Below, piece after piece: positions 5,050-29,221 of a stretch of DNA of 64,000 nt. Position 1 is the first letter of the stretch; the number at the start of each line of letters is the position of its first letter. The notes under the pieces are model-generated. The model did not search any database. It saw nothing but the letters and a program-made list of their open reading frames with translations, and was not told the DNA's origin. Source of the stretch: Crocinitomicaceae bacterium (GTDB taxonomy: Bacteria > Bacteroidota > Bacteroidia > Flavobacteriales_D > Crocinitomicaceae). Where the stretch lies: NCBI GenBank assembly GCA_030830895.1, contig JAURMC010000014.1, positions 248,001 to 312,000 on the forward strand, in the 5' to 3' direction. A program made the translations under genes and the position numbers.

Positions 5050-7989
5050 TTATAATTTTATAAACTTAACAGATTGGTTTTGTTTTCCAGAAATCAATTT
5101 AATGATATAGGTTCCTTTGGGTAAATCCTCTGAATCGATAGATACTTCATTTTCACCAGAAGCCATGTTTACTTTTTTAATCTGTTTCACTAATCGCCCC
5201 GTAATGGAGTATACTGAAATCTCCACCGATCCACTTTTGTTCAATTCAAAAGATAATGTAGTATTCGCATTGGATGGATTTGGATAGGTGATCAACTTTG
5301 CCTCTAATGAGGTATTGTTGATGTTTCCATTATTTCCTAATCCTAAGTAAGCCTCAGTCTTCCAAATGCCTCGTCCAAAGGTACCAATATAAATTTCTCC
5401 AGGTCGGTTATTTCCTTCTTCAAAGGTTCTCCAACTTTGACGAACTTCAAATACCGGTGTGCCTTCAAATCCTGAGGAGGCGTTTTCCCATGACGCACCT
5501 CCGTTCTCGGTAACAAAGACGCCTTCAGAAGTGCCTACTACAATAATATTTGCATCATCACGATCAATGATTCCATCAAAGCAACCCGGTTGGGAACCTG
5601 GGATAATGCTACCAAGAGCAGTAAAGGTAGGCGTAGCAGCAGTTGCGTTCAAAGATCTTCTATTTGTTCCATTAAATCCTGCAAACAAAACAATGTCATT
5701 TTTGTCAGATGGATTAACAGCTATTCCTTCATAATTAGAAGTTGAAATTTTTGTTGCTGTAGTAAAGGAAGGAGTAGTTGCTTGCGCCCCCGTTCCGACG
5801 AAAGCTACCTTAGACATGAAATTAGGATCGCTCGTGTAGACGCTACCAAGCCCATTAATTCTCCAAACCCCGTTACCTGCAACCACATAGCAATGCTCTA
5901 AATCACTTGAAAACTCAACATCAACAGAACTATTCGAACCAATACCTCTAGCAACACATACCCATTGCGCATTGGTTACCGCTAAACGAAGAGCATTTCG
6001 CGTTCCCCACAATTCTCCACCGTTAGCATTTACATAGACTAAAAACCAAGATTGGAATGGATCTGCTACTTTCAATGTATCCCATGCTACGTTAAATATT
6101 ACCGTATCGGATCCCATATTTACCAATTCACCAGTAGCTGCATTTTGACCAAAATTAATTCCATTCACAGTTAATGCCGGATTATACAACAATGTATCGT
6201 CGAAATGTAAATCAGTGGCAGTAAAATAATTAATTGAATCGCCAGAAGATAGACTAGGGATTCGTATCAAATCACCTGCATTGTAATTCTTTGTAGCAAT
6301 ATAATTTACCGAATCTTCTGAATTTGGATCAAAATACTCTGCCAAGAATACTTCTGTATGAAACGGATGGTTAGGGCTACCATCTGTTCCTGGTGGATCA
6401 TATGTACCTGGTAAAAGGGGTTCAAAAGAAGTCCACGTGACTCCCTTATCACCAGATCTGGATATAGTATTATAATAAATAGTGGAGAACATTACCGCAG
6501 GATTAAAGAATGAAATTTCACACTCGAATCCATCTCCTCCTCCAACTTCTCTGAATTCTTTGTATGTAGACAACGTATGATTGTTGTACAAGGTCCCGTT
6601 GTCTTGAGTTCCGCCCATTACCGCACCATCTCGATCGAATGCGATTCCATAAAACTGCGTGACATTGTATCCTCTATTTGCAACAAACCATGTGTTCCCG
6701 TAATCAGTTGTAATGCTTACTCCGCCATCATTTCCTGCATAAAAACGGTTGTTGCTATCCCATTTCATTTCATGGTTATCTGCATGAACGTATATGGACG
6801 AATTCGGAGCTACAGACCATAAAGATATCTTTTGGAAGCCCCCTGATGGCGGATTATTTACTGTTTGCTTCCATCGCCATATATCTATTCCACCAATTAA
6901 AATTTGTTCTGGGTCATTAGGTACTACGCTCACAATAGAGTTATATCCCCCTTGATCACGATAAATATCAAATTCACTTGGAGGTCCAGAAGCACCCACG
7001 AATTGAGTCCATGTGGCACCATCATCATGAGAAACGTGCATACTCAGCAAATTCGAATTAGTACGCACTGCATACAATGAATAATGATTAGAGCTATTTT
7101 TTACCGCAGAAACAGCAAACTCAATGCGAGGAGCATTGGCAGGAACTAAATTATTTGCTGCCGTACCGGATTTATTAGAGAAATTCGCGCCTCCGTCTGT
7201 GGAAACGAATGTAGTATTTGCACCAAATGCACAAATTATTACCTGACCGTCTTTTGACATTTCTAAAGCGGTACAAGATCCGGCAGTAACTGGTACAGAG
7301 GTCATTGTTGCATCACCAAGTTTCCATTTTTTCAATCCGCCTGATGAAGCCATAAATACGTAATTGTCAGCATCCGAGCTAACAATTTGTGTACAATTGG
7401 TAGTATTCGGTATATTGTCCCATGTGGCTCCAAAATCGGTTGAATACCAAACCCCATTGCCATTCCACGCCTCTTGATTAGAACCAGTTGCAACATATAA
7501 TACTCCGTCTGGTGTTTGAGTCATAGATGAGATGTAAGGATTTGCTCCGGCATTAAAATATTCATCGACACGATTCCAGACATTTCCTTTATTCAAGGAA
7601 ACAAATAATCCCCCTGAGACACCGCCAGCCCAAACACGGTTAACATTGGTTCGATCCACTTGTATGGCACGCGTTCGTCCACCAATGTTATCTGGCCCTT
7701 CTTCGGTAAACATAATATTCTTTGAACGATCCATTAAAGCTACGCGTTTGCGAATTTCTTGTAATTTGTCTTCCGAAATTTGTTCCCCGGTTTGAACATC
7801 AATATAACGTGCTTTCAACCACTCCAATGCTTCATCAGCGCCTTTGGTTGCTTTGTTATTTGAAGCAAATAACTCTGAAGTATTTTCTTCATATACTCCT
7901 AGGGTTGACTTACGCAATTCGTTGATACCTAAACCAACTATTAAAACTGCAACAAACAGAGAACCAATGAGATATATTTTTTTATTCAT
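5050..7989 (-). CDS. T9SS-exported beta-propeller (sortilin/BNR-type) surface protein
   Basis: A 979-residue protein. An N-terminal hydrophobic segment (about 5-25) is followed by a charged linker and a long run of Asp-box/BNR-like repeats, such as VSLNKGNVW, YSTDFGATW, STDGGANF, TTDYGNTWF and TENGGASW. These are typical of sortilin/Vps10-like propellers that bacterial annotations call glycosyl hydrolase-like. The last 80 residues form a T9SS type A sorting domain: YPNPS, SVYSITGRLVKQI, LPKGTYIIKL and a basic C-terminal VKFIKL. The protein is therefore expected in the periplasm and then outside the cell or on its surface. Enzyme activity is unproven; adhesion or carbohydrate binding is equally possible. 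It is monocistronic with its own terminator. Confidence 0.9.
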   Translation of the reverse strand: MNKKIYLIGSLFVAVLIVGLGINELRKSTLGVYEENTSELFASNNKATKGADEALEWLKARYIDVQTGEQISEDKLQEIRKRVALMDRSKNIMFTEEGPDNIGGRTRAIQVDRTNVNRVWAGGVSGGLFVSLNKGNVWNRVDEYFNAGANPYISSMTQTPDGVLYVATGSNQEAWNGNGVWYSTDFGATWDNIPNTTNCTQIVSSDADNYVFMASSGGLKKWKLGDATMTSVPVTAGSCTALEMSKDGQVIICAFGANTTFVSTDGGANFSNKSGTAANNLVPANAPRIEFAVSAVKNSSNHYSLYAVRTNSNLLSMHVSHDDGATWTQFVGASGPPSEFDIYRDQGGYNSIVSVVPNDPEQILIGGIDIWRWKQTVNNPPSGGFQKISLWSVAPNSSIYVHADNHEMKWDSNNRFYAGNDGGVSITTDYGNTWFVANRGYNVTQFYGIAFDRDGAVMGGTQDNGTLYNNHTLSTYKEFREVGGGDGFECEISFFNPAVMFSTIYYNTISRSGDKGVTWTSFEPLLPGTYDPPGTDGSPNHPFHTEVFLAEYFDPNSEDSVNYIATKNYNAGDLIRIPSLSSGDSINYFTATDLHFDDTLLYNPALTVNGINFGQNAATGELVNMGSDTVIFNVAWDTLKVADPFQSWFLVYVNANGGELWGTRNALRLAVTNAQWVCVARGIGSNSSVDVEFSSDLEHCYVVAGNGVWRINGLGSVYTSDPNFMSKVAFVGTGAQATTPSFTTATKISTSNYEGIAVNPSDKNDIVLFAGFNGTNRRSLNATAATPTFTALGSIIPGSQPGCFDGIIDRDDANIIVVGTSEGVFVTENGGASWENASSGFEGTPVFEVRQSWRTFEEGNNRPGEIYIGTFGRGIWKTEAYLGLGNNGNINNTSLEAKLITYPNPSNANTTLSFELNKSGSVEISVYSITGRLVKQIKKVNMASGENEVSIDSEDLPKGTYIIKLISGKQNQSVKFIKL

Positions 7990-17394: not shown

Positions 17395-20190
17395 ATGTAT
17401 CATCTTTTTTCCTACACCCTCAGTGTATTCATTATCCTGCCAACAATTTTCGCGCAACAGAATGCTTGTCCTAATGTTGATGTATCTCAAGGCAACTTTT
17501 CGAATTGGGCTGGATATACCGGTGGTTATTATTCCCCAGGCGCAAACTTTGGAATTGTCAACGGTAGACACACTGTAATTTCTCAACAAGGTACTGATCC
17601 AAATACCTGCAATCAACTCTCGTTTATCCCAAGTGGGCATACCAAGTCAATTAAACTTGGCAATTCGTCTAGTGGTGCGCAATCCGAGCGCTTAGTTTAC
17701 GCCATTCAAGTTACACCCCAAAGTAGCCTATTCATCTATAAGTATGCTGTTGTCTTGGAAAACCCAGGACATATTCCTACCCAACAACCAAAGTTCGAAA
17801 CCAAAATACTAAATTCAATGGGAATGCCGATTGGGGGTGGTTGCGGAACCTATACTGTATATGGTGGACAACCTGGTCAGAATTTTCAACAATGTGGCAA
17901 CCGAACATGGCTTCCATGGACAACAGTAGGATTAGATTTAACTCCATATGTAGGTCAAACCATTCAAATAGAATTTACCACTTGGGATTGCGCACAAGGA
18001 GCACACTTTGGTTATGCTTATTTGGCGGCAGAATGCTTACCCTTATCTATTGATGTTAATTTCTGCGGGGGAAATCAACCACTTATTTTAACGGCCCCGA
18101 ATGGATTTCAATCTTACGTATGGCATCCAGGAAACTATAGCGGACAGCAAGTTACTATCCAAAATCCAAGCCTAAATCAAACTTATACGTGTACAATGAC
18201 CACCTATTCAAATCAAGGAACCTGCGCAGTTGATTTAAGTGTTCAAGCAAGTCCAACCCTTTTACAATCCAATTTTACCTATACGGCAGGTTGTGAAAAT
18301 GAACCCATCACTTTTCAGGCCACTTCAACTGTAACGACAAACGTACCGAATGTGATCTTATCATATCAGTGGGATTTTGGAAATGCAACTCCCGCTTCGG
18401 CCATTGGAAACACCCCAAATACCAATTTTAATAATCCAGGAAATCAACTCGTTGAATTAATTACAAGCAGCTCGAATGGGTGCAGCGATACCATCCAACA
18501 ACAAGTCAATATCCTCCCAACTCCTCATCTTACACCAAGCGCTGATGCCACCTGCATGATGCAGCAAACAAGTTTCACGTTAGTAGGAACCCCTAATCTG
18601 CAACACCTTACTTGGGATTTTGGAGATAATTCAACCCTTGCTTCCGGCAATCCCATTACACATCAGTATTTTACCCCTGGAAACTATACTGTTGAAGTTA
18701 TCGGAATCGGGTTAAATGGATGTCAAGACACGGTATTGATGCCATTGACGATACAACCTCTTCCCTATATAGATGCCGGAAATGATACCGCAATCTGTCC
18801 AGGCCTTGGTCTTGTTTTAAACGCACAAGGCGCACTCAATCTTACTTGGGAACAAAGTTTATTACAGGGTCAACTCTATGTACCAAGCCAACAAGAATAC
18901 CTTAGTGTTATGGGAATAGATAGCTTAAACTGTATTGTAAGTGATAGTTTTCTAGTTCATATTCACCTCATCGATTCAGTACAAGCCATGCCGCATAGTT
19001 TTCTTTGCGATGGCGACAGTGTCCAACTCACGGCGGCTGCATTTGGTGGAATTTGGTGGGAGCATGGATACGTTAACCAGCAATGGATCTCTGAACCTGT
19101 TGGAATTCACCAGTTTGTAGTTCATGGCGTTGATGCAAATGGATGTTCCTCTTCCGATACAACCTATATTGAAGTGTATCCCTTACCTCTGGTACATGCA
19201 GGAAACGACACCACTGTTTGTTCAGGCTCGACTTTACTCTTACAAGCTAACGGCGCAGTGCAATACCAATGGTCTAACCAAGCGATGAATGGAAGCAGCA
19301 TCTCGATTCATACAAACCAAGATTTAAGCGTACTAGGCATCAGTGAACATGGATGCCAAGCGATCGACAGCATTCATATTGGAATAGATTCTATTCCAAA
19401 CTTAGGCTTTGGATTAGCGCCATATAATGGATGTATTCCGGTTGAAATCAATCTACAAAACCTATCCACAGGAAATTCTTTTACCCAAGTTCAATGGTTG
19501 AGTAGTAATGGAAATACTGCATTTGGTAATTCAGCACAACTAGTATTTACAGAAGTAGGCTGTTTCGATCTTACGCAAACTGTGACCACCACACTTGGTT
19601 GCAATTATTCAACGACGCAATCGAATGTAATCTGCACAAACCCTTTGCCTACCTCACAATTTTCACTTCCCCAAACGCCCTTTTCAACGTTGAACTATGG
19701 AGGAAACTTAACGAACTTAAGCATAGGTGCAGGAGGATATCTATGGGATTTCGGCGATGGCAGTTCTACGAGCAACGAAGTCGAACCCTATCATAATTTT
19801 CCGGATAATCAAGGTGCTTCCTATCAAGTCATGTTAATCGCATTCAATGAATTTGGATGTTCTGATACCAGTTTTCAAATGGTACAACTATCAGAGGAGC
19901 TAGCCTTCTACGTTCCCAATTCCTTTACGCCAGATGGAAATCAATTCAATAATGTATGGCAACCCGTTTTTACAGAAGGGCTCGATCCACAAGCGTATCA
20001 TGCAGTGATTTATAACCGTTGGGGTGAAATCATTTGGGAAAGCTATGATGTGGCAGTTGGATGGGATGGTACCTATGGGTTAAATGGCATAAAGGTGCAA
20101 GACGATGTATATATTTATAACATCACATTTGGTTACAAGGAATCAGCAAAAAAAGAACGAATTACCGGACACATTGTGTTGATTAAATAA
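17395..20190 (+). CDS. PKD-repeat surface protein with T9SS type B (gliding-associated) C-terminus
   Basis: 931 residues. A signal peptide (1-20, cleavage near IFAQ) precedes a Cys-rich lectin-like N-terminal region (about 21-225). Several PKD/SprB-type Ig domains follow, recognisable by YQWDFGNAT, LTWDFGDNST and YLWDFGDGSST plus CPG..L.L.A style strands. The last 90 residues are the gliding motility-associated CHU_C sorting domain (FYVPNSFTPDGN, YNRWGEIIWES, GWDGTYGLNG, YNITF, GHIVLIK). It is expected to be exported by T9SS and attached to or released from the surface; adhesion is the likely role. No PorP/SprF gene follows, which is the usual partner of such substrates. Confidence 0.92.
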   Translation: MYHLFSYTLSVFIILPTIFAQQNACPNVDVSQGNFSNWAGYTGGYYSPGANFGIVNGRHTVISQQGTDPNTCNQLSFIPSGHTKSIKLGNSSSGAQSERLVYAIQVTPQSSLFIYKYAVVLENPGHIPTQQPKFETKILNSMGMPIGGGCGTYTVYGGQPGQNFQQCGNRTWLPWTTVGLDLTPYVGQTIQIEFTTWDCAQGAHFGYAYLAAECLPLSIDVNFCGGNQPLILTAPNGFQSYVWHPGNYSGQQVTIQNPSLNQTYTCTMTTYSNQGTCAVDLSVQASPTLLQSNFTYTAGCENEPITFQATSTVTTNVPNVILSYQWDFGNATPASAIGNTPNTNFNNPGNQLVELITSSSNGCSDTIQQQVNILPTPHLTPSADATCMMQQTSFTLVGTPNLQHLTWDFGDNSTLASGNPITHQYFTPGNYTVEVIGIGLNGCQDTVLMPLTIQPLPYIDAGNDTAICPGLGLVLNAQGALNLTWEQSLLQGQLYVPSQQEYLSVMGIDSLNCIVSDSFLVHIHLIDSVQAMPHSFLCDGDSVQLTAAAFGGIWWEHGYVNQQWISEPVGIHQFVVHGVDANGCSSSDTTYIEVYPLPLVHAGNDTTVCSGSTLLLQANGAVQYQWSNQAMNGSSISIHTNQDLSVLGISEHGCQAIDSIHIGIDSIPNLGFGLAPYNGCIPVEINLQNLSTGNSFTQVQWLSSNGNTAFGNSAQLVFTEVGCFDLTQTVTTTLGCNYSTTQSNVICTNPLPTSQFSLPQTPFSTLNYGGNLTNLSIGAGGYLWDFGDGSSTSNEVEPYHNFPDNQGASYQVMLIAFNEFGCSDTSFQMVQLSEELAFYVPNSFTPDGNQFNNVWQPVFTEGLDPQAYHAVIYNRWGEIIWESYDVAVGWDGTYGLNGIKVQDDVYIYNITFGYKESAKKERITGHIVLIK

Positions 20191-21418: not shown

Positions 21419-22675
21419 CTATTTTTTTAACCACATTTCTCGATACAAACCATCCCTATCAAACAACTGCGTTTGCTTTTCTATGTTGAATTCTCGTCCC
21501 CCTCGATTATCATTACCTACTCCTGCGATATAGGCCCAGTTTCCCCAATTCGAAGCCACGTCATAATCTGCCAAACAATGTTCAAACCACGCTGCACCAT
21601 AACGCCAATCCTGTTTTAGTCCAAATACCCAGTAACTCGCCAAAATTTGCCGCATGCGATTGGAAATAAACCCCGTTGTTCGCAACTCATTCATTCCTGC
21701 ATTTATTAATGATTGGCTCGTTTTTCCTTGCGTCCATGCTTCAAATTTTCTTGGGTCAAATTGCTTATAAAGTGCCTGTTGTCCAAGTCCGTTTAAGAGG
21801 AAATAAGATTTAGGATGTTTCTTGAAACTGAAGCGAAAAAAATCGCGCCATAACAATTCAAAAACTAGCCAATAGGTGGAATCGTTCGAAACAACCTGCT
21901 GTTCATACCGTTTAATTTCACTGTAAATTCGTCTTGGAGATATACATCCTTGACTCAACCAGGCTGAGCATTTGGATGAAAAATTCAAGCCCGTTAATTG
22001 ATCTCTTGTTTCTTTGTAGGTTCGAATAGCATGACTTTCCCAAATAAATTCTACTAAGCGTTGTTGAGCAGCATCTTCCCCACCGATCATCCATTCGGGT
22101 GTTGAGCATTCCTTCAATGCCAAAGGCAAGACTTCAAGTTGAGGGGTTACAATGCGCTGAGGCGCTTCAAAAGGAACGCGTACCTTGGATTCTTTTTCAG
22201 TTAGTTTTCGAAACTTGGTGAAAAGCATTGGAATGTCCCGTACGCTAAACGGCAAATCATCGGGATGATATAAGGTACTCGTTGAATATGTTTCAAAATC
22301 AACTCCAAGTTTTAAAAGCTGTTGTTTAATTTCTGATTGAAGTGTTTTTTCTTCGCTTCCCACTTGTTTCTTGGTGTATACCTTACGTATTTGATATTTG
22401 ACACACAACCTCGGTAATTCGACATTGGGAGTCCCCTCAACAACCAACAAGGTTCCCCCAAGTTCATTGAACTTTTTCTGCAAATTCAAAAGAGAATCCC
22501 GGATGAATTTTTCGCGAGCCATGCCTCTTCTCGGGATCGTAAACTGCAGTTGATCGGAAAACGTTTTTAAGAAAAAAACGGGTACGATTTCATCGTTTTC
22601 TTCAATGGCTTTTAGCAAGGTTTCGTTATCATCAACCCTCAAATCTTCTGTAAACCACACCAACCCTCGTTTCAT
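21419..22675 (-). CDS. DASH-type cryptochrome/photolyase
   Basis: A 418-residue flavoprotein. The N-terminal Rossmann-like photolyase domain starts VWFTEDLRVDDN. The C-terminal FAD domain shows SNRMRQILASYWVFGLKQDWRYGAAWFE, then DYDVASNWGNWAYIAGVGND and the downstream GGREFN, matching cry-DASH. Family members repair cyclobutane dimers in single-stranded DNA and may also signal. It is last in the photolyase operon; its ATG overlaps the preceding stop (ATGA). Confidence 0.93.
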   Translation of the reverse strand: MKRGLVWFTEDLRVDDNETLLKAIEENDEIVPVFFLKTFSDQLQFTIPRRGMAREKFIRDSLLNLQKKFNELGGTLLVVEGTPNVELPRLCVKYQIRKVYTKKQVGSEEKTLQSEIKQQLLKLGVDFETYSTSTLYHPDDLPFSVRDIPMLFTKFRKLTEKESKVRVPFEAPQRIVTPQLEVLPLALKECSTPEWMIGGEDAAQQRLVEFIWESHAIRTYKETRDQLTGLNFSSKCSAWLSQGCISPRRIYSEIKRYEQQVVSNDSTYWLVFELLWRDFFRFSFKKHPKSYFLLNGLGQQALYKQFDPRKFEAWTQGKTSQSLINAGMNELRTTGFISNRMRQILASYWVFGLKQDWRYGAAWFEHCLADYDVASNWGNWAYIAGVGNDNRGGREFNIEKQTQLFDRDGLYREMWLKK

Positions 22676-24198
22676 AGATACTCTATATTTTGTTTGATTT
22701 CTTGCGCTTTTTCTAAAATTAATTGCTTTTGAGCATCTTCCATTTTATCCCAAACCTTGTACATCATACCGATGCGTGGGTTTCGCTCAAGCAGGGAACG
22801 GTTGCGGGCATAAAAATCCCAGTACAATGTATTAAACGGACAAGCTTTCTCTCCAAATTTATCTTTATAATTATAGCTGCATCCGTCACAATAATTGCTC
22901 ATTTTCTTAATATAGGCCGCCGAAGAAACATAGGGTTTTGAGCCGACAATCCCGCCATCTGCGAATTGACTCATTCCACGGGTATTCGTAATTTCTACCC
23001 ATTCGAAGGCATCTATGTAAATCCCCAAATACCAGCGATCTACCTCATCGGGATGCACGCCAAGCAAGGAAGCAAAATTACCTGTAACCATCAGGCGCTG
23101 AATGTGATGGGCATAGGCATGATCTAAGGATTGCTTAATGGCATGATGCATGCAATTCATTTTCGTTTCACCCGTCCAATACCACGAGGGCAGCCGTGCT
23201 TCATTGCCAAAATAATTGAGCGTGGAGAATTCGGGCATTTTAGCCCAATAGATGCCGCGCATGTATTCTCTCCAACCTAAAATTTGACGAATAAAACCTT
23301 CAATTTGATTCAACTCATAGGTGTTAGGATGGGCGAAATAAGCTTGTTCCACTGCCCGAATCACTTCCATGGGACCAAGTAATTTCACATTAAGGGCAAA
23401 CGACAATCGTGAATGATACAAATACCAATGCTGGGTTGTCATAGCGTCTTGGTAGGTTCCAAACAATGGCAAGGCCTGTTCAGTGAATTCTTGAAGTAAG
23501 TTCACTGCAGCAACTCTTGATACGGTCCAGGAAAAATTAACCGGATCAATTGCTCCGATAGTTTTAAGTTGAGCCTGTTGGATGTCTTCGTACACCGTAG
23601 TTTGATCCGTAACCCCTAATGCAGTGGTCGAAATCTCGGCTTTTGCTGGTAATTTCTTACGGTTCTCGTGATCAAAATTCCACTGTCCACCTATTGGTTG
23701 ATCGCCTTCCATTAGGACTGCGTGTTTCTTTCGCATGTACCGATAAAAGGTCTCCATGAGGAACATTTTCTTACCAGCAAACAAGGTGGCAACTTCCTCC
23801 CTCCCCGTTAAAAAATGTTCGGAATCAACCGCGTTTAACGGAAACTTTGATTGCTTAAAATATTGATCTAATCGATATTCGTCTGGTAGTTGATAGCTAA
23901 CCTTTGATATACCATGTTCTGTACATAGCGCTTCAATATTTTTTAAAAAATCGTGATGATTGTTTGGTTCGTTGATTTTAACGTAATGTACATTGTGACC
24001 ACGTGTTATTAACTCTTGAGCAAAGGCCCGCATCGCGGCAAAGATGGAAACTACCTTTTGTATGTGATGCGTTACATATTCCGACTCAGACTTCACCTCC
24101 ATTAAAACATACAAAACGGAGGAGTCTACCGATTGAAACCACGGATGGTTTATATTTAATTGATCCCCTAAAACAAGACGTATTTCTTTAAATTTCAT
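22672..24198 (-). CDS. Iron-sulfur bacterial cryptochrome/photolyase (FeS-BCP, PhrB-like (6-4) photolyase)
   Basis: 508 residues. The four [4Fe-4S] ligands of this class are present at Cys349 (MNCMHH), Cys437 and Cys440 (YCDGCSY) and Cys453 (KACPFN). Both spacing and positions are within one residue of Agrobacterium PhrB (350, 438, 441, 454), as I remember that protein. The N-terminus RLVLGDQLN is typical. PhrB repairs (6-4) photoproducts and binds a lumazine antenna; the same chemistry is inferred here. The gene overlaps DUF2256 upstream and the DASH gene downstream by 4 bp each. Confidence 0.93.
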
Positions 24199-24338
24199 GG
24201 TTTCTTTTGGGTTCTACATTGGTCACTGCAATAGATTACTTCGTTCCATACCCGCTCCCATTTTTTTCTCCACGAGAAAGGGCGCTGGCATACTGGGCAA
24301 ACTTTTTGGGGCAGATTCGCTTTCTTAACGTTTTTCAT
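24195..24338 (-). CDS. DUF2256 small zinc-ribbon protein
   Basis: A 47-residue gene found by reading the gap between two photolyase genes. The product begins [12 protein letters not shown] and has a CPVC knuckle and a second pair CSDQC, with a conserved [11 protein letters not shown] core between them. This is the DUF2256 pattern, a tiny protein long noticed beside cryptochrome genes. The four cysteines suggest a zinc ribbon. Its start lies inside the end of the upstream cryptochrome gene (14 bp overlap) and its TGA overlaps the next ATG. Translation is therefore coupled on both sides. Function unknown; a nucleic-acid or photolyase partner is conjecture. Confidence 0.9.
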
Positions 24339-25785
24339 GTGCTGCTCGATTAGGTGAAACATGCTTGGCCAGTACGTTCTTACCGAGAGTTCTCGAGCGG
24401 TGTGACTTTTTTATCCCATACATGATGTCTGAAGCATGTTTACGCGTGGCTTCAATATCGACAATCGGAAAGGGATAATCCTCGCCAATACGGCAATTAC
24501 AAAATACCTGGTCCATTTCACTCATTTTCCAAGGTTCATGAATGAAAGCCTGCGGCACATCGCTGAGTTCAGGTACCCATTTTTTTATAAAAATTCCATC
24601 CGGATCATGCGATTCGGAATTTTTAACAGAATTATAAATGCGTAAGGTATTTACACCGGTTAAGCCGGCTTGCATTTGAATCTGAGGATAATGAATACCC
24701 GGTTCATAATCCAGAAACTGCCGTGCTAAAAAATGGAGTTCTTGCCAATCTTGCCATAGGTTATACACAAAAAAAGAAACTACCATCGCCCGCATTCGAA
24801 AGTTCAAATAACCTGTTGCAACAACACAACGCATGCAGGCATCAACCAAAGGAATCCCAGTCATTCCCTCTTGCCAAGCGGTAATAAATACCTCATTTTT
24901 CACCTTTCCCAAGTGCTCAAAGGCTGCATTAACAGGCAAGAATTCCATGCGACATTCGGTTTCAAACTTTTGAATGAAATGGCAATGCCAGTGCAACCTT
25001 GAAATGAAATTGGCAAGGGAACGTACATTACCACCCTGCTTTTTTACGCGAAGTGCTTGCTGATAAACTTGTCGAATTGAAAGGTTCCCATAGGCTAGAT
25101 ACGGTGACAATCGACTGCACGATTTTCTAGCGGCCTCCGGTTTAGAAATATGTAACGAATATGTTCTATGTCGGACATCAAAAAAAGTATCCATGTATCG
25201 TTTGGCATTGAGTATACCACCCGGCTGAAAGTGTTTATTTGGCGTTTTAATCTCAACTGACAGAGAAGACTCATTGGGTAAATCCATTTTAACCCGAAGA
25301 GAAATCAGCTGATCGAGTTGGGGTTCTTCAGTAGGGGCATGCATAAATTGAAGCCATTCTTTGTCCCATGTTTTGCGGTGATTTAATCCTCTAATAATGC
25401 CGTTGGTTTGAAATTCGTACCACGGAATTTGCTTTAATTTAAGAAATGCCGCAATACGTTTGTCGCGATTGTATGAAATCAAGTTCCCCGTTTCTTGGTG
25501 AGAAAATACGCCTTGAATTTCATAATTGGAGCATAATGCTTCGAACGCCAAATCGGATCTTCCGTGTACTATGGTAACATGCTGTTTAGGTAAGCATTGT
25601 TTTAATTGATTCAAGGACTCATAAACGAAGCGCCAATGACGAACGTCTGAATCCGGTGCTACCATCAATTCAGGTTCAAAAATATATAGCAAAATTATGG
25701 GAAGCCCCTGTTCAATGGCTCGCTTAAGCGGTAGGTGATCACTGAAGCGTAAATCACGTTTGAACCAAAGCACATTTACTTTCAT
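24325..25785 (-). CDS. Cryptochrome/photolyase-family flavoprotein
   Basis: 486 residues. The N-terminal photolyase domain begins [15 protein letters not shown]; the FAD domain holds [53 protein letters not shown] and an extended [19 protein letters not shown] segment. This set marks a Bacteroidetes/proteobacterial cryptochrome-like class distinct from DASH and from FeS-BCP. Whether it repairs dimers or is a light sensor cannot be told. It is the first gene of the four-gene operon and is divergent from the phosphatase gene at 25851. Confidence 0.88.
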
Positions 25786-27830: not shown

Positions 27831-28253
27831 ATGAAAAATACATTTTATTCTATTGCATTTATTTTAACGGCCTTTATTGGGCATTCATGTGCATCAACAG
27901 GTTCGGAAGGTACAGAAATTCAAAGCCCTGCAGGTGGGGATATAAAAACACTTTTAGCGAGCGACTTTAACACGCAAGAAAAAGATACAAACACGGTAGT
28001 TATTGATGTTCGTAGCCCGGAGGAAGTAGCGAATGGATTTATACCTGGGACGGACTTATTCATTAATTTCTTCGACGAAAATTTCCAAGATCAACTTCAA
28101 AAATTAGATAAAACTAAAACCTATATTGTATATTGTCATTCCGGTAACCGAAGCGGAAAAGCGGCGAATGTAATGCAACAACTCGGCTTCACAACTATTT
28201 ACAATTTACAGGGTGGAATTTCAGGTTGGACTGGACCCTTGTCGCAAAAATAA
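27831..28253 (+). CDS. Rhodanese-domain lipoprotein
   Basis: 140 residues. A lipoprotein signal with lipobox IGHSC is followed by a single rhodanese domain: VIDVRSPEEVANGFIPG and the active-site loop YCHSGNRSGKA with catalytic Cys. Rhodaneses carry sulfane sulfur. The stop shares a base with the next ATG (TAATG), so it is coupled to the YeiH-type exporter. Confidence 0.9.
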   Translation: MKNTFYSIAFILTAFIGHSCASTGSEGTEIQSPAGGDIKTLLASDFNTQEKDTNTVVIDVRSPEEVANGFIPGTDLFINFFDENFQDQLQKLDKTKTYIVYCHSGNRSGKAANVMQQLGFTTIYNLQGGISGWTGPLSQK

Positions 28254-29221
28254 TGAATCAAGAAAAGCTGTACAGTGTAATTTGGGTTGGAGGTATCAGT
28301 GCAGCAGCATGGTTTATTGCCCCGTATACCCCAAGTGCACTGAATAGCATCATGCTTGCACTCCTTATTGGAATCATTCTTGGCACGCTCATTAAATTTA
28401 GGCAAGAAGTAAAAAAACCGTCAGCAAGCATTGGTTCAAAAGCCTTGGAATATTCCATACTTTTTCTTGCTTTTGGGATTAACTATCGGTTTTTGATGAA
28501 TATCGGATGGATACCAATCCTCGGGATCTTGACCAGCATCACGGCAGTATTATTGATCACCAAAATCCTGGTAAAACGCTTTAACTGTCCGGCTTCGGCA
28601 GGATGGTTAATTGGCATTGGGACAGCCATTTGTGGGTCCTCGGCAATCGCCGCAGCGGCACCTTTTGTTTTAAAAAACAAAGAAGATATTGGGATATCCT
28701 TAGCTGTAGTTAATTTATGGGGGGCTCTTGGTATGATCATACTTCCTCTACTTTTCCAACTTCCCTTGATTAATTCAATAAACCACGGATTAATCTTAGG
28801 AGGAGGATTGCATTCTGTGGGGAATGTAATGGGAGCTGCATATGGCATGAGTGATGCGCTCGGAAATGAAGCCTTGGCAATAAAAATGGCACGCGTTGCG
28901 TTGCTAACCCCAGCCTTGTTGGTGATCGTTGCTATGAATCGACGTGAAAACAACGCTTCTGAGCGAGTAAAGGCAAAGATCCCTTGGTACATTTATGGCT
29001 TTTTATTCATTACAGCCTTGGTAAGTATTTTCAAGATTCCAAGCGAATTGATTGAATGGAACGAGTGGTTCGGTAAGATTGCACTCACAGTAGCCATGGC
29101 GGCCATTGGAATGAATGTGAATTTAAAAGAACTGCTGATTTCTGGAAGAAAGGGACTGTTATTTGGTCTGTTAATTTTTATTGCGCAGTTAGCAGTTTTG
29201 TTTGTTATCGCTAGTATATAG
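28253..29221 (+). CDS. YeiH/UPF0324-family membrane transporter (putative sulfur-anion exporter)
   Basis: 322 residues, about 10 helices. The family signature GTAICGSSAIAAAAP and the C-terminal VAMAAIGMNVNLKEL are present. YeiH-type proteins are annotated as putative sulfate/sulfite exporters. The upstream rhodanese fits a sulfur theme. ATG 28253 is chosen because it overlaps the rhodanese stop; a TTG at 28226 would extend into that gene. Confidence 0.9.
   Translation: MNQEKLYSVIWVGGISAAAWFIAPYTPSALNSIMLALLIGIILGTLIKFRQEVKKPSASIGSKALEYSILFLAFGINYRFLMNIGWIPILGILTSITAVLLITKILVKRFNCPASAGWLIGIGTAICGSSAIAAAAPFVLKNKEDIGISLAVVNLWGALGMIILPLLFQLPLINSINHGLILGGGLHSVGNVMGAAYGMSDALGNEALAIKMARVALLTPALLVIVAMNRRENNASERVKAKIPWYIYGFLFITALVSIFKIPSELIEWNEWFGKIALTVAMAAIGMNVNLKELLISGRKGLLFGLLIFIAQLAVLFVIASI

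Follow-up and report, generated by a model that had tools for sequence, protein, structure and literature searches.

A block of three photolyase-family genes and a DUF2256 gene in a Crocinitomicaceae bacterium, and the co-occurrence of DUF2256 with (6-4) photolyases

What keeps three genes of the photolyase/cryptochrome family and a gene for a very small protein side by side on one strand, and what does the small protein contribute? The question is raised by positions 21419-25785 of a 64,000-nucleotide stretch of contig JAURMC010000014.1 from a Crocinitomicaceae bacterium (assembly GCA_030830895.1), hereafter called the window. All four open reading frames (ORFs) of the original prediction were confirmed in their order on the minus strand: gene A (24325..25785; 486 amino acids (aa), photolyase/cryptochrome family, PF00875 and PF03441), gene D (24195..24338; a DUF2256 zinc-ribbon protein of 47 aa, PF10013), gene F (22672..24198; an iron-sulfur prokaryotic (6-4) photolyase of 508 aa with a CxxC..C pattern, PF04244), and gene H (21419..22675; 418 aa, DASH family, C-terminally short). 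According to the ORF coordinates, A and D overlap by 14 bp (24325..24338, minus strand), and D/F (24195..24198) as well as F/H (22672..22675) by 4 bp each, both reading ATGA on the same strand. The frame of D is open further upstream to an ATG at 24362, which would give 55 aa (24195-24362); the overlap of 14 bp follows from taking the start common to D relatives (MKxVKK, ATG at 24338) instead, and with this start the predicted overlaps of 14, 4, and 4 bp stand.

Because the genes overlap, we infer their co-transcription, and the tight packing alone would imply a single transcript for all four. On balance, we consider it probable that the locus as a whole is a co-transcribed, light-driven DNA-repair cassette with a zinc-ribbon accessory protein. 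More informative than the four-gene block itself, however, is the observation that the presence of DUF2256 goes along with that of the prokaryotic (6-4) photolyase family, also where the two genes are unlinked.

DUF2256 and the (6-4) photolyase family

Gene F scored 238.9 bits against PF04244 and, over residues 1-506, aligned with solved members of the FeS-BCP/prokaryotic (6-4) photolyases (PDB 7ykn/8a1h, 4dja, 3zxs) at 542 bits, sharing with them both the full-length match and the CxxC..C pattern. Three cluster cysteines were located by script and the fourth, further upstream, was judged by eye, which completes the set of four. By its family, F is predicted to repair (6-4) photoproducts by means of FAD and a 4Fe-4S cluster. 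A second PF04244 branch, F2, is 30-36% identical to F. In the loci examined, the CxxC..C pattern is present in all F proteins longer than 470 aa and in none of the F2 proteins, and D genes were found at most 4 kb away from members of either branch.

For the co-occurrence counts, either branch of PF04244 was accepted as presence of F. Among 148 Bacteroidota genomes, including that of the window, D was found in 50, F or F2 in 49, and both in 46; without the window genome, the respective numbers are 49, 48, and 45 of 147. In 21 of the 46 genomes with both, the two genes lie within 5 kb of each other, and of the 25 non-linked pairs, 18 are on different contigs and 7 on one contig. For 199 Pseudomonadota, the counts were 48 genomes with D, 48 with F, and 41 with the pair; in 19 of these 41 the two genes lie within 5 kb of each other, and in 22 they do not. 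We then divided the genomes by the presence of photolyase-type genes matching gene A as query (E up to 1e-3 in Bacteroidota and 1e-20 in Pseudomonadota). With such a match, D was present in 40/40 Bacteroidota with F and 3/41 without F, and in 32/38 and 5/47 Pseudomonadota, respectively; where no match was found, D was present in 6/9 Bacteroidota with F and 1/58 without F, and in 9/10 and 2/104 Pseudomonadota. Furthermore, for the best 80 of 595 candidate D loci from named genomes, F was found in the locus itself in 31 cases and elsewhere in 34/41 and 3/8 of the remaining genomes, adding up to 68/80. Within a set of 14 named control genomes, D occurred in Caulobacter and Synechococcus elongatus, and F in both of these and in Haloferax. 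Genomes with an A orthologue also hold both D and F in 20/20 Bacteroidota (window genome included) and 15/18 Pseudomonadota; the three others have neither D nor F, and two of them provide the weakest A matches (33-34% identical). The link between DUF2256 and the module, proposed in the original prediction, is supported.

The assignment of D to DUF2256 is clear (77.3 bits against PF10013, with a gathering score of 25), and its cysteines 14, 17, 37, and 41 are invariant in 30 aligned rows. The closest structural match to the predicted model of D (pLDDT 82.8) was YacG, a gyrase-binding zinc protein and gyrase inhibitor, followed by the FCS finger 2w0t; with E 0.61 and TM 0.52 for the former and E 1.5 for the latter, both are too weak to establish an identity and were kept as hints alone. 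DUF2256 has been placed in the TRASH clan of metal-binding fingers (PMC4047054), and it is reported to occur frequently among bacterial small proteins with a length of at most 50 residues (PMC11796252). Assembly of Fe-S clusters was rejected as the main role of D, since D is also found beside family members without the Fe-S cysteines, namely F2. We favour an accessory that would help the enzyme to find or hold DNA or another protein. The literature searches of this study covered open-licence articles, with most subscription papers outside their scope, and within that literature no paper linking DUF2256 with photolyases was found; the term DUF2256 occurs there in two papers, both on other subjects. 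Co-occurrence with (6-4) photolyases in two phyla, often without linkage, would give DUF2256 its first testable role.

Two further observations concern the form of DUF2256 genes. Long frames containing DUF2256, A, or H (loci L170, L178, L199, L231, and L241) were considered as fusions and dismissed; they are probably read-through of GC-rich DNA, as Pfam gives no additional domain for them. In locus L137, a 61-aa DASH-like frame (7072-7257) adjoins an intact DUF2256 gene, as if the latter had outlived its neighbour.

Gene A and the glycosylase fusion of A-type proteins in Deinococcus

Gene A had been described as cryptochrome-like. This label had to be revised, since the score of A stays below every curated cut-off for cryptochromes and photolyases: it scored 150.3 bits against the 506 required for class I cyclobutane pyrimidine dimer (CPD) photolyases (PRK10674), 133.3 against 317.05 for DASH proteins (TIGR02765), and 140.1 against 603.85 for plant cryptochromes (TIGR02766). 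We relied on the numbering and presumed roles of E. coli photolyase residues, taking Asn378 to be the residue at flavin N5, Glu274 to contact the CPD, and Trp306, Trp359, and Trp382 to form the Trp triad. In the alignment, the columns of Glu274, Asn341, and Asn378 hold Arg, Phe, and His in A, and of the triad, Trp359 is kept while Trp382 and Trp306 are replaced. The residue set of class I CPD photolyases (Glu274, Asn341, Asn378, and the triad) is therefore not present in A, which differs from class I/III CPD photolyases (1dnp, 4u63) at all of these positions except Trp359. Arg263, Phe329, and His365 of A (codon of the last at 24691..24693, minus strand, from ORF coordinates, its place in the Asn378 column taken from the alignment) are invariant throughout the A lineage. 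A structure search with A returned fold matches to many classes close together in score; FeS-type photolyases were absent among the 50 fold matches listed, although A may nevertheless be related to them. Judged by its sequence, A represents a lineage of its own in which the flavin pocket has changed. The window genome, which is 64% complete, holds a further photolyase-family gene on its contig C3, and the relatives of this gene (class P), which represent it in the tree, fall together with class I rows.

A pointer to the function of A came from Deinococcus. On plasmid P2 of Deinococcus gobiensis, an A-type domain lies in frame with uracil-DNA glycosylase in a single ORF, with Pfam matches to both photolyase domains and to the glycosylase domain. 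The RefSeq coding sequence at the A match of D. radiophilus and D. psychrotolerans is a single 760-aa protein named just uracil-DNA glycosylase, and four more Deinococcus plasmids bear this label at the A match. As an observation on annotation, RefSeq uracil-DNA glycosylase genes in L166, L265, and L266 (Deinococcus plasmids) have an unnamed photolyase-type N-terminal part, and the annotated glycosylase start in D. gobiensis falls inside the photolyase-type region. We found no paper on a photolyase-uracil-DNA glycosylase fusion in Deinococcus in the open-licence literature.

Cytosine-containing CPDs deaminate to uracil, and a fusion of photolyase and uracil-DNA glycosylase is therefore sensible for repair; A may act on deaminated-cytosine dimers in this way. 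As far as sequence comparison can tell, the fusion makes a role in repair more probable for A than one in light sensing. A bolder proposal, which we regard as speculative and rather doubtful, combines two claims, namely that A founds a photolyase class, with His at flavin N5 and Arg in the lesion pocket, for cytosine-containing or deaminated, uracil-bearing photoproducts, and that bacterial (6-4) photolyases in general have DUF2256 as a near-obligate partner subunit. The A-glycosylase fusion in Deinococcus would then be explained by the uracil-bearing photoproducts that A would handle, and DUF2256 would have been overlooked because it has about 47 residues and is often unlinked. With its altered flavin pocket and its natural glycosylase fusion, the A lineage in any case allows the connection of light repair with uracil removal to be tested directly.

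Recurrence of the block and competing explanations

The third photolyase-family member, H, exceeds the curated DASH cut-off (TIGR02765; 450.6 bits against 317.05) and falls into a 16-row clade (support 100/100) that includes two annotated DASH proteins. Of the DASH cryptochrome structures 1np7, 6kii, and 2j4d, H aligns to residues 9-433 of the 489-residue chain 1np7 and is thus shorter than the latter by about 55 C-terminal residues; an annotated Pseudoalteromonas DASH protein of 435 aa is similar in length. By family, H is predicted to perform DASH-type CPD repair, probably best in single-stranded DNA. Families, cut-offs, and the tree place A, F, and H apart rather than in one redundant subclass, in agreement with the three separate photolyase lineages that had been predicted.

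The order of the four genes recurs. A search of 59 other relatives revealed an A orthologue (E below 1e-85) in 38, all of whose neighbourhoods were examined, some contigs ending inside the block; A-D-F-H is contiguous in 4 of these 38 (L034-L037), and L046, from another family, has the same order, except that 1.25 kb of inserted sequence separate A from D. Besides the window genome, three others of its genus show overlaps of 14/4/4 bp and a fourth of 14/14/4, at 72-88% protein identity. The other A loci of the relatives include X-A, X-A-D-F2, X-A-F2, A-D-H, A alone, and other sets, with X being a gene of about 320-400 aa that stands beside A and, in the one copy scanned, encodes an FAD-binding domain only. 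None of the 49 other D loci of the 148-genome Bacteroidota sample has the exact order; D-H-F-A was found once (L103), D-H-F, D-F, A-D, and X-D-F many times, and 14 of the 49 have no photolyase-family gene in the examined stretch. Among the best 80 D loci, 11 have A-D-F-H (F2 counted as F, H2 as H), including those of a Crocinitomicaceae metagenome-assembled genome and Flavobacterium hiemivividum (L173); one of the 11 is the G004 locus, whose genome is already among the four relatives. Spacing is looser in other Bacteroidota with the same order: a DUF2071 gene lies between A and D in L173 and L226, together with TspO in L226, and three other loci have a gap of 719-720 bp at this position. No photolyase-family gene was found on the strand of D within 5 kb in 39 of the best 80, nor on either strand within 3 kb in 32. 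The block is thus one of several arrangements, itself stable, of genes that are reshuffled as a set; the suggested dedicated module is mostly right, with support from the tight, conserved order, but incomplete in this respect.

In such a cassette, F would repair (6-4) photoproducts, H would serve as a short DASH protein for CPDs, and A would be a repair photolyase that has kept the photolyase fold. Because its flavin and lesion pocket are rebuilt, A might perform other chemistry on DNA or act on another photoproduct. D would be a small zinc-ribbon accessory without which the (6-4) photolyase family, and perhaps A, would not be fully functional; it would more likely aid the binding or handing over of damaged DNA, or a protein contact, than the building of an Fe-S cluster. 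Since its three repair-type proteins are packed into one short unit, the cassette could be transferred in a single piece.

Several points weigh against this reading. A scan for sigma-70-type promoters found fewer sites than shuffled sequences (28 versus a mean of 35.1); the pattern TANNTTTG, presumably the Bacteroidota -7 element, occurs 7 times in a 4.5-kb locus, not clearly above the shuffle mean of 5.0. D occurs without F in 4/50 Bacteroidota (two of them weak matches), 7/48 Pseudomonadota, and 12 of the best 80, and F without D in 3/49 Bacteroidota, 7/48 Pseudomonadota, and Haloferax. The Fisher p-values for D with F (8e-30 in Bacteroidota, 6e-28 in Pseudomonadota, kinship ignored) overstate independence because the genomes are related, and many of the "unlinked" pairs lie on different draft contigs. 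At least three of the nine Bacteroidota genomes with F and no A-query match carry X beside D and F, and so do not contain F alone. A and F are hard to separate as partners of D because A genomes mostly hold both D and F, and since D directly follows A in 31 of 89 A genes, it may serve A as well as F. Six relatives have F2 right after A with no D adjoining, as far as the locus extends, and no fusion of DUF2256 to F2 was found in the six loci seemingly without D. Lastly, the A clade stands apart from class I rows in a tree built without eukaryotic, plant, or class II sequences, which makes the rank of A among all photolyase/cryptochrome classes provisional.

Four other explanations have to be set against the cassette. 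If A were a blue-light receptor (cryptochrome) controlling the module, its lost Trp triad and the His near flavin N5 would give a signalling photocycle, in keeping with the loss of the CPD-contacting Glu and two triad Trp and with the failure to reach any curated photolyase subfamily cut-off. We think this unlikely, as the A-type proteins of Deinococcus are joined to a uracil-DNA glycosylase and no single regulator gene is regularly found next to A (a TetR gene in 10/183 loci); the light sensing that the original prediction considered possible for the module likewise found no support, the fusion pointing to repair. To a similar degree, we doubt that D and F co-occur merely as genes of light-exposed bacteria, D having an unrelated task. 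It is true that 25/46 and 22/41 pairs are not within 5 kb and that D weakly resembles the gyrase inhibitor YacG; however, A-query matches, taken as a rough proxy for light exposure, do not predict D in the absence of F, whereas F predicts it in the absence of such a match. Certain types, among them the short gene X, escape the A query.

It appears quite improbable that repair genes without joint function, acquired horizontally, came to lie together by chance: although the genes are reshuffled and swapped between species, genomes of the genus have kept the overlaps and other Bacteroidota show the same order, which argues against chance. We give even less credence to the idea that DUF2256 serves the iron-sulfur photolyase in Fe-S or metal assembly. 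Its four invariant cysteines, its position next to F, and its membership in a clan of metal-binding fingers (PMC4047054) would suit that role, but D stands beside the cysteine-less F2 as well.

Genomic surroundings and known systems

Neighbouring genes were counted over 183 loci, each being named from the Pfam match of one representative. Recurrent among them are a short-chain dehydrogenase/reductase (SDR; 50 loci), DUF2805 (41), flavin reductase (27), TetR (10), and ABC1-kinase (9), as expected of a light and oxidative-stress neighbourhood. In Vibrio fortis, flavin reductase is directly downstream of A; none of the ten scanned flanking ORFs of the window encodes an SDR, DUF2805, or flavin reductase. 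DUF2805 genes (TIGR03643-type) lie near photolyase loci L042, L043, L045, L046, L103-L106, L164, L189, and others; in an open-licence paper on DUF2805, as far as it was covered, photolyases do not appear. Within the window, two adjacent alkaline-phosphatase-superfamily genes (PF01663; 25866-27764, plus strand) are divergent from the cassette and followed by a rhodanese gene, and a gene for a YeiH-like transporter (PF03601, below the NCBIfam YeiH cut-off; 28226-29221, plus strand) is located some 2.4 kb away from gene A; on a Pseudoalteromonas plasmid (L255), YeiH likewise neighbours the DASH gene. On the other side, 17395-20190 (plus strand) encodes a 931-aa PKD-repeat protein with a type IX secretion C-terminal domain (CHU_C).

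Regarding described families, gene X, which is found outside the window, may by the domain of the one copy scanned and by its length belong with the short photolyase-like proteins (SPL), a group named in PMC9178010. According to the same source, its subgroup M lacks the cluster cysteines, as does F2, the likeness being limited to the missing cysteines. The arrangement had also been presented as undescribed. While we found no paper on this gene order in the open-licence literature, a UV-B-inducible operon with two photolyases has been published: in Synechococcus sp. PCC 7335, two photolyase-family genes with an 11-nt overlap are co-transcribed and induced by UV-B (PMC9649867). This operon differs from the present block in having two genes, one of them for a PhrSph98-like bifunctional partner, without the A-D-F-H set, and the paper does not contain the term DUF2256 (PMC9649867). 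Photolyase operons as such are already known, and the parts of this locus worth following are the link of DUF2256 to the (6-4) photolyases and the lineage of gene A.

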